From the NCBI RefSeq assembly GCF_900156865.1, contig NZ_LT732529.1, positions 1,205,784-1,269,783 on the forward strand: DNA of 64,000 nt, written 5' to 3'. The notes beneath the pieces were generated by a model, which was given only the letters and a program-made list of their open reading frames with translations, was not told where the DNA came from and ran no database searches. Position numbers and translations under genes: made by a program. This stretch comes from Litchfieldia sinesaloumensis (GTDB lineage: Bacteria > Bacillota > Bacilli > Bacillales > Bacillaceae_L). Shown here one piece after another: positions 52,592 to 56,582 of the stretch (the first letter of the stretch is position 1; each line of letters opens with the position of its first letter).

Positions 52592-52658
52592 ACTCGATTC
52601 TCCCTTTCTATTTATCAAAACAGTGTTAACGAATTCTACATAAACCGGTCCATCTTAG

Positions 52659-53105
52659 TTAAATACATGTAAACGACTGGATCTGACGTAAGCTAATTCC
52701 GAAATACATCCATCTGAATCCATTCCATCTGTACCCTGAGACAGATCTTCTTCCTACAAATGTTGGATAGAACCAGAATTGTTCAGGTCCGCGTAGCCAT
52801 ACATAGGTATACCTGAATAAACACCCTCTAATACTACCTGGATCGACGGCGAAAGTTTGAGCTTGTTGAGTTTGTGTCGGGACAAACGATGGTGGTGGTG
52901 CGGTTGGAGGTCCACCACCTTGACCTTGGCTAGGTGGGCCGAATGGTGGAAATCCACTAGGCCCTTGACCAGGTGGTCCCATTGATCCGCCACCAAAAGG
53001 TGGAAAAAATGAACCTAATTGTCTCTCATATTCATAGTCGTAAGAAATACCATTGTGGTCTGGTTGTGGCAATCCCATTACATGATAGGGGTCATAATAA
53101 TACAT
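52659..53105 (-). CDS. Gly/Pro/Gln-rich protein with aromatic C-terminal domain
   Basis: A 148-residue protein: YYYDPYHVMGLPQPDHNG N-terminus, a low-complexity Gly/Pro/Gln/Phe middle (about 33-80) and a C-terminal aromatic/Arg-rich block (RYTYVWLRGPEQFWFYP, GRRSVSGYRW, FRWMYFG). No signal peptide. The composition resembles spore-coat or exosporium-associated proteins of Bacillus, but I cannot name a family. AAGGAGTG precedes ATG by ten bases. Monocistronic. Confidence 0.7.
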   Translation of the reverse strand: MYYYDPYHVMGLPQPDHNGISYDYEYERQLGSFFPPFGGGSMGPPGQGPSGFPPFGPPSQGQGGGPPTAPPPSFVPTQTQQAQTFAVDPGSIRGCLFRYTYVWLRGPEQFWFYPTFVGRRSVSGYRWNGFRWMYFGISLRQIQSFTCI

Positions 53106-53202
53106 CTGTCTAAATCACTCCTTATTCATAGACTACTAGCATCCTATTCCATAGGCTTACGCCTTTAAACTTGTACCTCCAAAATGTGCGTTTACCCATA
53201 AT

Positions 53203-53252
53203 AGAAAAAAACACCTGCCTCTACTACTAAGAATAGTATCTAGAGGCAGGTG
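53203..53252 (-). terminator. terminator after the two-module isoprenoid synthase
   Basis: CACCTGCCTCTA (53212-53223) pairs perfectly with TAGAGGCAGGTG (53241-53252), followed by a minus-strand T-run of seven. Confidence 0.93.
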
Positions 53253-53259
53253 CCAGAGT

Positions 53260-55629
53260 TTAGTGGTCTCTATGAACAAAGTAATTCAAAATATATTTTA
53301 AAAATGTAGTTTTGAGTGGAATCTCTTGTAAGGCATCTAACGCCAAACAATAATGTTCCCACATTGCTTTTTTCGCATCTTGTACTCCAAGTACAGAAAC
53401 AAAGGTTGAATGATTGTTTTCAGCATCTTTCCCAATGGTTTTTCCAAGCACACTAGAGGTACCCTCGACATCTAGTAGATCATCCTTAATTTGAAAGGCA
53501 ATACCTGCATGATAGGCAAACTTTTTTAACGCTATTGTTTCTGCTTCACCTACTTTTGCGAGAATAGCGGGCATAATCAGTGAGGCTTCAAATCCTTTTC
53601 CGGTTTTTAAGAAGCACATTTGGTTTAATTGTTCGAGCGTTAATTGTTTTCCTTTAGATTCTAAGTCTAGCGCTTGCCCCTTGCACATATCCATTGTTGT
53701 TTCTGTTGAGTATTGGATTAATTTTAATACCGTTTTCGAATCGTATTGTGAAAGTGACGTTTGCTCAAATATAGCTCTTTGAGTCAGAAACAGACCGGTT
53801 AATTCCGCAACAGCTGTACTATATGACTGATGGACTGTTGGTCTCCCTCGTCGGAAAGAAGCATTATCTTGAGCCGGAAGGTCATCGTAAATCAAAGAGG
53901 CTGTATGCATGTACTCAATAGATTTTAAAAGTGGAGTAATTGCATATTCATCTAATTCGAATTCTTTTACCCCCACCATCCATGTAACGATTGGCCGTAA
54001 TCGTTTCCCGTCTCCTGCGAGACTATGATTTGAAGCATCCGATATCGATGATGATTCTGTATGATTTTGAATGTGCAACTGGTTATTTAGCTTTGAGCGA
54101 ACTTCTATAATCAAATCAGTGAATGAATTCTGTTCGTCTTGATCCTTTTTTAAACTGTTTACCATATGGTCGCGTAAAAGTTTATCAAAGAAATCAACGT
54201 CATCTGCTTTACGAACCATTTTTTGTATCGTGCGATCTAACTCTGGATTTCCCGTTGCAAATGTGTCCATGACTTCATCATATACTTTAGTGCCTACTTT
54301 CTTTTTAAAACGTTTTAAGCCATTAATGGCACGGTTTAATATGATTTCTCGAGCTTTTTGATCATAATTGTACACATTGTAAATCAAATAAGAAATGACA
54401 GCCCAATATAGTTCATATGGATTTACTAGATCAGAACGATGTTTATAATAGGTTAAATAATACGTATAAGGTGTTACTGCACCATGCTCCATGTCGGAAA
54501 ACATGTCTGCAAAGTCATCCGCCAACTGATTATATATACCATAAAGGAAGATACGTTTGTTAATCTCTTTATCCTCAGGAGCAGTTAGAAGTGAACGGAC
54601 AATCATACGGGAGGATGCAGATTTAATGATAATTGGGATATATAATTCCTCATTGGTATACGTGTCATTTGATAGCACCTTCTCCCTGTCGACCTCTTGG
54701 GATTTGAAAAAAACATAGGTTTGTTCAAAAAAAGAATGTAAGGTTTCTTGAGGTTGATGATCCTTAATAAACTGGAAGGCTTCGGCAAGCTCAGAATGTA
54801 TAAATTCGAGTAATTCTTTGTTGTCCTCTGGCCATTCCCCTAATGCAGGTACAGTTTGTGTTATAAGAGTGATTCGAATCAGATTGGAATACTCCCTTTT
54901 TTCCTGATCGGACAGGACTTTTGCATCCAAAAGGTCATCAATAAATGGATAAGTGAGTCCATAGGCATACCCTAATCGTATCGCTGTATCAAGTTTTTTT
55001 GAGCGTTCTTCCTGGGAAGGAGTTCCACGCATCTCTTCAATCTCGTTGATTATGACACCTGCAATAATCTTAATTAATTTTCTTCTGGCATGTGTTCGGT
55101 CCATTCCCTCTGGTATGTTTGTAGAAACGGTCTTTAATTTATCCATCAACCAGATAATCGTACTTTCAATACCTTCCTTTTGGCCCCAGCGATATAACCC
55201 AGCCATACTAAAAAGATCGATATCTTCTTTATTATCCTTGGATGTAACTTCTAGTAAATGATTCTTTAAACTAGTGACAACGTTTTGTATTCTTGTTTGT
55301 GTAGCACTAGAAGTAAGGTCTTTTCCCATATCTCTCATAAAAATATAGGAGATACTACGATCCAAATAACGTTCTAGCTTCCCCCTATAATGTAGGTACC
55401 GTATATAATTGTAATATCCTTCGTTTTCTAATGCCTTTTTCCTATTTGTTTTAAAAGGAATAATTGAACGATGAATATGATCTTGTTTCCAGGAGTGAAA
55501 GTCATTGGTTAATTGTGTAACATACTTCTTCTCTTGGACATCTTGAAAAAGCGCTTGAAAATACTCAGTAGCCATCTTCTCAGCGAGCTGATAGCTTTTT
55601 TCAGTATTCTTTTTTACTCCAACATTCAT
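53260..55629 (-). CDS. two-module isoprenoid synthase: unknown N-domain + polyprenyl synthetase
   Basis: A 789-residue protein. Residues about 505-789 form a complete trans-prenyltransferase: GDGKRLRP (539-546), first Asp-rich motif YDDLPAQDN (581-589) followed by RRGRPTVH, CKGQALD, and second Asp-rich motif FQIKDDLLD (712-720). The first ~500 residues are helical and match no family I know. They carry two similar motifs, GLTYPFIDDLLDAK (224-237) and GIYNQLADDFADMFSDME (364-381), suggesting a diverged isoprenoid-synthase-like fold, for example a terpene cyclase or degenerate prenyltransferase. A normal bacterial prenyl synthase is about 290-350 residues. GAGGT lies eight bases before the ATG. 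Monocistronic. Confidence 0.85.
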   Translation of the reverse strand: MNVGVKKNTEKSYQLAEKMATEYFQALFQDVQEKKYVTQLTNDFHSWKQDHIHRSIIPFKTNRKKALENEGYYNYIRYLHYRGKLERYLDRSISYIFMRDMGKDLTSSATQTRIQNVVTSLKNHLLEVTSKDNKEDIDLFSMAGLYRWGQKEGIESTIIWLMDKLKTVSTNIPEGMDRTHARRKLIKIIAGVIINEIEEMRGTPSQEERSKKLDTAIRLGYAYGLTYPFIDDLLDAKVLSDQEKREYSNLIRITLITQTVPALGEWPEDNKELLEFIHSELAEAFQFIKDHQPQETLHSFFEQTYVFFKSQEVDREKVLSNDTYTNEELYIPIIIKSASSRMIVRSLLTAPEDKEINKRIFLYGIYNQLADDFADMFSDMEHGAVTPYTYYLTYYKHRSDLVNPYELYWAVISYLIYNVYNYDQKAREIILNRAINGLKRFKKKVGTKVYDEVMDTFATGNPELDRTIQKMVRKADDVDFFDKLLRDHMVNSLKKDQDEQNSFTDLIIEVRSKLNNQLHIQNHTESSSISDASNHSLAGDGKRLRPIVTWMVGVKEFELDEYAITPLLKSIEYMHTASLIYDDLPAQDNASFRRGRPTVHQSYSTAVAELTGLFLTQRAIFEQTSLSQYDSKTVLKLIQYSTETTMDMCKGQALDLESKGKQLTLEQLNQMCFLKTGKGFEASLIMPAILAKVGEAETIALKKFAYHAGIAFQIKDDLLDVEGTSSVLGKTIGKDAENNHSTFVSVLGVQDAKKAMWEHYCLALDALQEIPLKTTFLKYILNYFVHRDH

Positions 55630-55766
55630 AATAGATACCTCAACTTTTGTTCAATGCATTATACTTAATCGTATTCACGTCGTTCTTCCTTTAAACTATC
55701 ATATTATATTTTTTACTACTACAATTTTGGATCGACGGTTGTTTCTAAAAGATAATACATCAACAA

Positions 55767-55812
55767 AAAAACAGCAAGAGGAAAAGTTTTAGTTTTTTCC
55801 TCTTGCTGTTTT
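55767..55812 (-). terminator. terminator after the SDR gene
   Basis: 18-bp perfect arms (55768-55785 with 55795-55812) ending AAAA/TTTT; T-run on both strands. Confidence 0.93.
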
Positions 55813-55847
55813 ACGAACTAGCTATTTCAGGTTTGCCCTTCATTCTA

Positions 55848-56582
55848 TCATTGTGCTGTAAGTCCACCATCTACAACAAATTCTGAACCTGTAGAGTAAC
55901 TTGAATCATCCGAAGCTAGATACAAAACTATGTTAGTTACTTCTTCAGGCTTTGCAATTCGACGATTTGGGATGAATTTCGCAAATTCCTGTATTGCTTC
56001 CTTTGCATCATCTTGAGCAATCATTGGTGTTTCAATTACGCCAGGGTGAACGGAATTTACACGAATGCCCATATGAGCCAGTTGAAGAGCAGCCGCTTTT
56101 GTCATACCACGTACTGCAAATTTTGTATCAGTGTAGCCAATCGCGCCACCCACGAGTCCGTTGATTGAAGAAATATTAATTATTGAACCGCCCTTTGTTT
56201 TTTGCATGGACGGTACTACTGATTTCATCCCAAGAAAAACTGAGACTTGATTAATGTCTAAAATTCTTCTATATTCTTCTTCTGTGATTTCCATTAAACT
56301 TTTGTTCATGCTGATACCAGCATTGTTGACTAGAATATCAATTGGACCAAACGTTGATTCTGTTTCACTAACAACTGTTGCCCAATCATCAGCCTTTGTT
56401 ACATCTTGTTTAATGAATCGAGCATGATCACCAAGTTCTTTTTCTAATGAATTTCCATCATCTTCAAGAATATCCGTAAAAACAACTTTTGCACCTTCAG
56501 CAACAAACCTACGTACATGAGCTGCTCCCATACCACGTGCTCCACCAGTAATAACCGCAACTTTACCGACTAATTTACTCAC
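55848..56582 (-). CDS. SDR family oxidoreductase (glucose 1-dehydrogenase-like)
   Basis: A 244-residue classical SDR. TGGARGMGAAHVRRF cofactor motif, Asp after strand beta-2 (TDIL), NNAGIS, Ser in INISSINGLVG and the catalytic YTDTKFA (Tyr-x3-Lys). The C-terminal STGSEFVVDGG is typical. GTG 56582 is preferred (AAGGAG eight bases upstream) over a GTG at 56591. Substrate unknown; hydroxysteroid/glucose/3-hydroxyacyl type. Monocistronic. Confidence 0.88.
   Translation of the reverse strand: MSKLVGKVAVITGGARGMGAAHVRRFVAEGAKVVFTDILEDDGNSLEKELGDHARFIKQDVTKADDWATVVSETESTFGPIDILVNNAGISMNKSLMEITEEEYRRILDINQVSVFLGMKSVVPSMQKTKGGSIINISSINGLVGGAIGYTDTKFAVRGMTKAAALQLAHMGIRVNSVHPGVIETPMIAQDDAKEAIQEFAKFIPNRRIAKPEEVTNIVLYLASDDSSYSTGSEFVVDGGLTAQ

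Follow-up and report, generated by a model that had tools for sequence, protein, structure and literature searches.

A fused gene of Bacillales may encode a one-chain, two-step isoprenoid enzyme

Can a single bacterial protein both make a prenyl diphosphate and convert it to a terpene? This question is raised by a gene of Litchfieldia sinesaloumensis that lies in a stretch of 64,000 nt (GCF_900156865.1, NZ_LT732529.1, positions 1,205,784-1,269,783), which we call the window and whose positions serve as coordinates below. A sequence-only reading of the window had proposed that one gene at 53260-55629 encodes a complete prenyl diphosphate synthase module behind an N-terminal domain with aspartate-rich motifs of its own, and had likened this protein to the chimeric terpene synthases of fungi. 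The gene is indeed one intact open reading frame of 789 aa on the minus strand with no internal stop (Table 1). It had also been credited with its own promoter and a strong terminator. The terminator stood up, being found by stem-loop folding where a simple pattern scan missed it. The promoter did not, as a consensus scan of 52600-56000 returned 8 sites against a shuffle mean of 10.9, with 0 minus-strand sites in the gap before the gene. A search for an upstream motif beyond the ribosome-binding site yielded only that GAGGT-type site, present as exact GAGGTAT in 23 of 79 distinct stretches. The neighbouring upstream gene on the same strand encodes an SDR-type dehydrogenase and has its own stem-loop, so the fused gene looks, from its sequence context, to be monocistronic in this genome. 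The genes around it match CorA, oligopeptidase F (M3), glyoxalase, SDR, DNA topoisomerase, and histidine kinase; no isoprenoid gene lies beside it in the window and, as had been claimed, no carotenoid or quinone gene. Downstream, positions 52659-53105 (minus strand) encode a Pro/Gly-rich protein of 148 aa that has no Pfam match and looks like a surface or spore protein; few of the 42 loci have a relative of it.

Table 1. Coordinates of the features of the fused gene in the window. Fractions are the share of 78 distinct fused sequences that have the residue.
Feature	Position	Strand	Details
Whole gene, 789 aa	53260..55629	-	ATG start, no internal stop; open frame 796 aa
Ribosome-binding site GAGGT	55637..55641	-	Read from the sequence
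Intrinsic terminator past the stop codon	53205..53254	-	Fold of -29.3 kcal/mol, then a T run
N-domain, residues 1-495, predicted all-helical	54145..55629	-	No Pfam, NCBIfam or PDB sequence family; AlphaFold2 pLDDT 84.8, pTM 0.85
N-domain basic cluster R183-K184-K187, N-terminal to the first motif	55069..55083	-	All three 78/78
N-domain first Asp motif DDLLD, residues 231-235	54925..54939	-	D231, D232, D235 78/78
N-domain basic helix K336-R345	54595..54624	-	K336, S340, R341, R345 78/78
N-domain second Asp motif QLADDFADMFSD, residues 368-379 (GIYNQLADDFADMF at 364-377)	54493..54528	-	Q368, D371, D372, D375, D379 78/78
C-module, residues 510-789, trans-prenyl diphosphate synthase by sequence	53263..54102	-	PF00348 and NCBIfam FPP-synthase model
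C-module GKRLRP, residues 541-546, which we take to be the IPP-site motif	53992..54009	-	K542, R545 78/78; R543, P546 77/78
C-module Ala577, five residues ahead of the first Asp motif	53899..53901	-	Ala 77/78, Gly 1/78
C-module first Asp motif DDLPAQD, residues 582-588	53866..53886	-	D582, D583, D588 78/78
C-module RRG, residues 593-595	53845..53853	-	78/78
C-module second Asp motif DDLLD, residues 716-720	53470..53484	-	D716, D717, D720 78/78

Conservation was scored over 78 distinct fused sequences longer than 740 aa, the query included, from which copies and fragments had been removed but near-relatives had not, so that the rows are not independent. An earlier set of 58 rows had included the window gene twice (L003, L045) as well as near-duplicates and L040, a fragment.

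The C-terminal half drew a match in both family searches. PF00348 matched residues 529-754 with an E value of 1.1e-50, over the Pfam cut-off, and the NCBIfam FPP-synthase subfamily model aligned its positions 8-288 of 288 with residues 510-789 at 222 bits, below its cut-off of 275 bits. With two Asp motifs, GKRxRP, and RRG also in place, and with K675 and T676 unvarying as well (78/78), residues 510-789 are by these sequence features a complete trans-prenyl diphosphate synthase, confirming the module that had been placed at about 505-789. Passages in PMC11048977 state that eubacterial FPP synthases bear an aromatic residue five positions before the first Asp motif, that this residue limits the chain to FPP, and that yeast FPP synthase with Tyr changed to Ala at this site makes FPP and GGPP. 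Because the fused proteins have Ala or Gly there and not an aromatic residue, the product of the C-module is predicted to be GGPP (C20) or longer, which is more likely than FPP. The same position is Tyr in the IspA-type enzyme of the same genome (L002). Against a GGPP-type enzyme stands the result that the best NCBIfam model for the C-module is that of the FPP synthases. This genome has three PF00348 genes, namely the fused gene and two that we presume from their motifs to be HepT-like and IspA-like; with the IspA-like protein the C-module shares 35% identity, and with the HepT-like one 28%. In a tree of 52 rows that has long branches and unsettled bootstrap values, 21 C-modules fell on one side of a branch (100/99) beside four FPP-synthase-like rows.

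What, then, is the N-domain? The sequence-only reading had called for profile searches, and these placed residues 1-495 in no sequence family of Pfam, NCBIfam or the PDB. The only Pfam match was Dsl1_C (0.0085), which scored 16 bits where the cut-off is 30 and which we took as chance, NCBIfam gave 0 matches, and a PDB sequence search with the N-domain profile at E up to 10 gave chance-level matches only. Nevertheless, the two aspartate-rich motifs that had been described are present, the first in the wider form FIDDLLD at residues 229-235, and they are laid out as are the first and second motifs of prenyl diphosphate synthases. Poor conservation had been named as grounds for doubt, but D231, D232, D235, D371, D372, and D375 do not vary among the fused sequences. 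The N-domain thus shares motif register and layout with the trans-prenyl diphosphate synthases, the family to which the C-module belongs, but differs from them in having about 100 extra N-terminal residues and in lacking a PF00348 match, GKRxRP, the His seven residues before the first motif, and the RRG after it. On PF00348 and the IPP-binding residues it therefore falls outside that family, and its use of IPP is not expected. A possible substitute for the IPP-site residues is the basic cluster R183-K184-K187. The domain also departs from canonical class I terpene synthases; it has DDLLD, but DDxxDxxxD replaces NSE/DTE and no Pfam model matches. PF19086 was not found in the window's own genome. 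We considered D379 (i+8) as a terpene synthase NSE signature and rejected it, since Asp is found likewise in 13 of 28 ordinary synthases (those of 31 that fitted the second-motif pattern; 3 did not) and in 46 of 78 C-modules. Likewise, we dropped the idea that the N-domain arose from the C-module by internal duplication, as the profile match between them spans only 23 columns with an E value of 0.12.

We modeled the N-domain with AlphaFold2 from 24 sequences and obtained an all-helical fold (Table 1). Compared with the PDB by Foldseek, the full N-domain had 391 matches at E up to 10, of which 0 reached 0.001 and the best was 0.043. Among the best 50 of these 391 rows, 48 were prenyl diphosphate, terpene or squalene synthases by title or recognized name; the other two were an HMGCR-UBIAD1 complex and an ACP-HEPS2 model. 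A core model of residues 100-495 from 39 sequences was less confident than that of the full domain (pLDDT 78.1, pTM 0.72), and its best 50 of 554 rows comprised 49 such synthases and the ACP-HEPS2 model, with a best E value of 0.0086. For both models the TM-scores were mostly 0.25-0.5, and the rmsd was over 10 Å in every row among those listed. For the class I superfamily, then, we have an all-helical model with class I neighbors at E values above 0.001. Given the weak E values, low TM-scores, and large rmsd, the models point at best to a divergent class I isoprenoid synthase fold. The reading of the protein as a two-module isoprenoid enzyme is partly supported; the best PDB neighbors of the N-domain are class I and the motif register agrees, but the matches are weak (best E 0.04).

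In no library did the N-domain find better fold matches than in a viral one. An uncharacterized protein of Cedratvirus kamchatka (BFVD A0A6G8MX44; E 8.5e-5, rmsd 5.3, probability 1.00) was the only match under 0.001, followed by a likewise uncharacterized protein of Pithovirus LCPAC403 (BFVD A0A481ZCB8; E 2.2e-3, probability 1.00), and the third match had a probability of 0.14. These are single-domain proteins of 293 and 305 aa that are likened to the N-domain by fold only. By these model comparisons, they may be unrecognized isoprenoid enzymes of giant viruses. A terpene synthase is reportedly on record for Orpheovirus.

Alignment of profiles gave a view of descent. The profile of the N-domain (79 rows) aligned with that of 31 prenyl diphosphate synthase (IDS) ORFs, two of which (L154, L173) lie on very long branches and may be in wrong frames, over 217 columns with first motif on first and second on second. 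The score was 28.8, whereas 80 block shuffles had a mean of 16.1 and a maximum of 22.4, so that 0 of 80 scored as high. For the squalene/phytoene synthases and for YtpB/DUF2600, 21 of 80 block shuffles were as high as the N-domain itself in each case, and no relation was detectable by sequence. Thus only IDS, of three families compared by profile, scores above its shuffles, and the N-domain seems from its sequence to be an offshoot of the lineage of prenyl diphosphate synthases. The hhalign probability for the N-domain against IDS was 4%, which counts against the two-step reading that we develop below; as yardsticks, the squalene/phytoene synthases, which are known to share the IDS fold, gave 13% and YtpB gave 1%.

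A comparison with YtpB had been suggested, and it ended in the negative as far as sequence goes; the genome encodes YtpB elsewhere, in a gene of its own. According to passages in PMC7839719, YtpB and BalTS (DUF2600, PF10776) are Bacillales enzymes that ionize and cyclize a prenyl diphosphate, and BalTS, a relative of YtpB, has a class I-like structure. Since BalTS is class I-like, the failed sequence comparison says nothing about the fold of the N-domain. The fused protein differs from these enzymes in that it has no PF10776 match and in that their motifs, DYLDNLxD and DY(F,L,W)IDxxED, are absent from it.

The likeness to IDS bears on two other readings of the N-domain. It could be a second chain-elongating prenyl diphosphate synthase, the two halves together building a long linear chain in two stages. 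Its motif register and layout would suit such an enzyme, but the missing GKRxRP, His, and RRG would not, and we consider this very improbable. Alternatively, the N-domain could be a class I prenyltransferase whose acceptor is not IPP but, for example, an aromatic, a second isoprenoid (in irregular coupling) or a peptide like those modified by the peptide prenyltransferase ComQ, to which it would pass the prenyl group made by the C-module without cyclizing it. Both N-domain motifs are IDS-like DDxxD motifs, IDS alone beats its shuffles, and the want of a recognizable IPP site fits another acceptor. However, no acceptor-like gene is generally linked to the fused gene; no small ORF within 1.2 kb of it recurs at more than 7 of 42 loci or beyond a single clade. 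We therefore regard an acceptor prenyltransferase as unlikely.

We lean, with some reserve, towards a two-step isoprenoid enzyme in one chain, in which the product of the C-module is converted to a terpene by the N-domain. In the first step the C-module very probably condenses IPP with an allylic starter to form a prenyl diphosphate. This product would then pass to the all-helical, class I-type N-domain, where the two Asp motifs would hold Mg2+ and the diphosphate would be ionized. As the N-domain has no recognizable IPP-binding residues, the cation would be turned into a terpene, a hydrocarbon or alcohol that is probably cyclic, and not elongated. We infer cyclization and the identity of the product from sequence and models. 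Among ORFs of at least 90 aa at 42 loci no neighbor family is general, the widest being a merged ABC-transporter-like cluster at 14 of 42; with no tailoring gene generally linked, the single gene may give the whole product.

This arrangement resembles that of the fungal fused prenyltransferase-terpene synthases (PTTS). As described in passages of PMC8307374 and PMC8190136, these enzymes, such as the fusicoccadiene synthase PaFS, have the class I domain N-terminal and the prenyltransferase C-terminal, and in PaFS most GGPP stays on the enzyme; a passage in PMC8307374 calls such fusions unique to fungi. The likeness that had been claimed holds for domain order, since one chain carries the domains in the order described in those passages with the prenyltransferase at the C-terminus (PMC8307374, PMC8190136). 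The differences are that the fused gene is bacterial and its N-domain profile has no sequence match to any PDB chain, that the N-domain has about 495 residues where PaFS has at most 344, that about 15 residues separate the last N-domain helix from the C-module match where PaFS has a linker of about 70, and that the second N-domain motif is of DDxxD type in place of NSE/DTE. We take the fused protein to work like a fungal PTTS without being a member of that group, since no relation in sequence links the N-domain to known terpene synthases and its second motif departs from NSE/DTE.

Selection was compared between the halves. Both were under purifying selection in all 14 pairs tried, some of which had saturated dS, with dN/dS of 0.04-0.30 for the N-domain and 0.03-0.15 for the C-module. 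The N-domain value was the higher in 13 of the 14 pairs, and this somewhat faster evolution counts against the two-step reading. This slightly greater tolerance of change would suit an N-domain that is a non-catalytic partner of the C-module, regulating it or setting its chain length as does the HepS/HexA small subunit of heterodimeric synthases. Passages of PMC7839719 describe such heterodimers, in which one subunit sets chain length and is not catalytic, and fusion would fix the ratio at 1:1. Yet a non-catalytic partner would have no need of motif aspartates and nearby basic residues that are unvarying in 78 of 78 sequences, and the unfused relatives described below have no adjoining prenyl diphosphate synthase gene in their partial neighborhoods. 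We hold a non-catalytic partner to be quite unlikely and retain the two-step enzyme as our preferred reading.

We found the fused gene at 41 named loci with 55-70% identity. They belong to Paenibacillus genomes, to genomes of Bacillaceae and Sporosarcina type, and to a single MAG labeled Clostridia. Of these loci, 23 were used in A1 and 38 in A2. Two were excluded from both: L029 (Oceanobacillus salinisoli) has a stop inside the stretch expected from relatives, and in L040 (a Bacillus MAG) the fused gene is split into two frames, which may reflect decay or assembly error. Close copies in L012 (the MAG labeled Clostridia) and L090 (G332, outside the window's class) may reflect transfer or mis-binning. 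In whole genomes, counting the window's own each time, the family was matched in 15 of 17 genomes of the taxonomic family, 27 of 199 of the order, and 9 of 398 of the phylum. All family and order matches and 8 of the 9 phylum matches were fused frames of 776-859 aa. The family is thus patchy in Bacillota and spread over many Bacillaceae and Paenibacillus genomes. The remark that such a protein is unusual in Bacillus is right as to patchiness, but this is no oddity of Bacillus, as the gene is found fused across Bacillales. Plasmids gave 0 matches, and viral contigs held no relative by sequence. YtpB was matched in 61 of 61 order genomes, in one (G054) only as broken pieces, so the fused gene does not replace YtpB. 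Only 1 of 299 genomes searched had a PF19086 match.

The ninth phylum match (G558) is a distant, unfused relative of the N-domain at a contig end, and its congener G516 has a complete unfused copy of 419 aa with no Pfam match; these are 2 of 15 genomes of that class. The N-domain profile matched this pair with a probability of 95 over 186 columns, and the existence of two distant unfused relatives shows that the N-domain is an independent unit. At L122 5848-9561 an unfused relative lies 482 bases downstream of genes of the M56 (BlaR1-type) peptidase and PF03965 penicillinase-repressor types.

One neighbor recurs. A gene for the protein adenylyltransferase SelO (selO, PF02696 by profile match) is found close to the fused gene and in the same orientation at 11 of 42 loci, of which 7 belong to a single Neobacillus-type group; its side and its distance vary. 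It is likewise near the fused gene, again on the same strand, in 8 of 36 other regions (L180, L195, L190, L183, L186, L203, L204, L194). With G516 and G558 set apart, 35 of 43 fused-gene genomes have selO. Nine of these 35, which represent six genera, have the two genes no more than 10 kb apart, on the same strand in 9 of 9, against a chance expectation of about 0.16 when genomes are treated as independent. As a control, among the 44 genomes that have selO, 0 have YtpB less than 10 kb away from it by their coordinates. In the window's own genome selO and the fused gene are 528 kb apart. In G558, selO and the unfused relative share a strand and are separated by 2.5 kb (L123 3577-5052). The link may be functional, through adenylylation of the enzyme or shared regulation, or may be inherited from an old gene order. 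Terpene synthesis does not explain this recurrent neighbor, which counts against the two-step reading.

Our literature search, with most subscription journals outside its reach, led us to recognize no paper that deals with this gene or reports a prenyltransferase-terpene synthase fusion from bacteria. We regard as evenly poised the fuller proposal that this is an independently evolved bacterial chimeric terpene synthase, in which a new, IDS-derived class I terpene synthase family that current family models miss and a GGPP-type synthase fused to it yield a di- or higher terpene from a single Bacillales gene that in some genera shares a locus with selO. If the fused protein is a bacterial counterpart of the fungal enzymes with a sequence-unrelated N-domain, the same architecture would have arisen twice. 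The repeated selO neighborhood would offer a second handle on the biology of the fused enzyme. Since the phylum has few canonical terpene synthases of the PF19086 type, the family would be an overlooked source of terpenes in common soil and plant-associated Bacillales.
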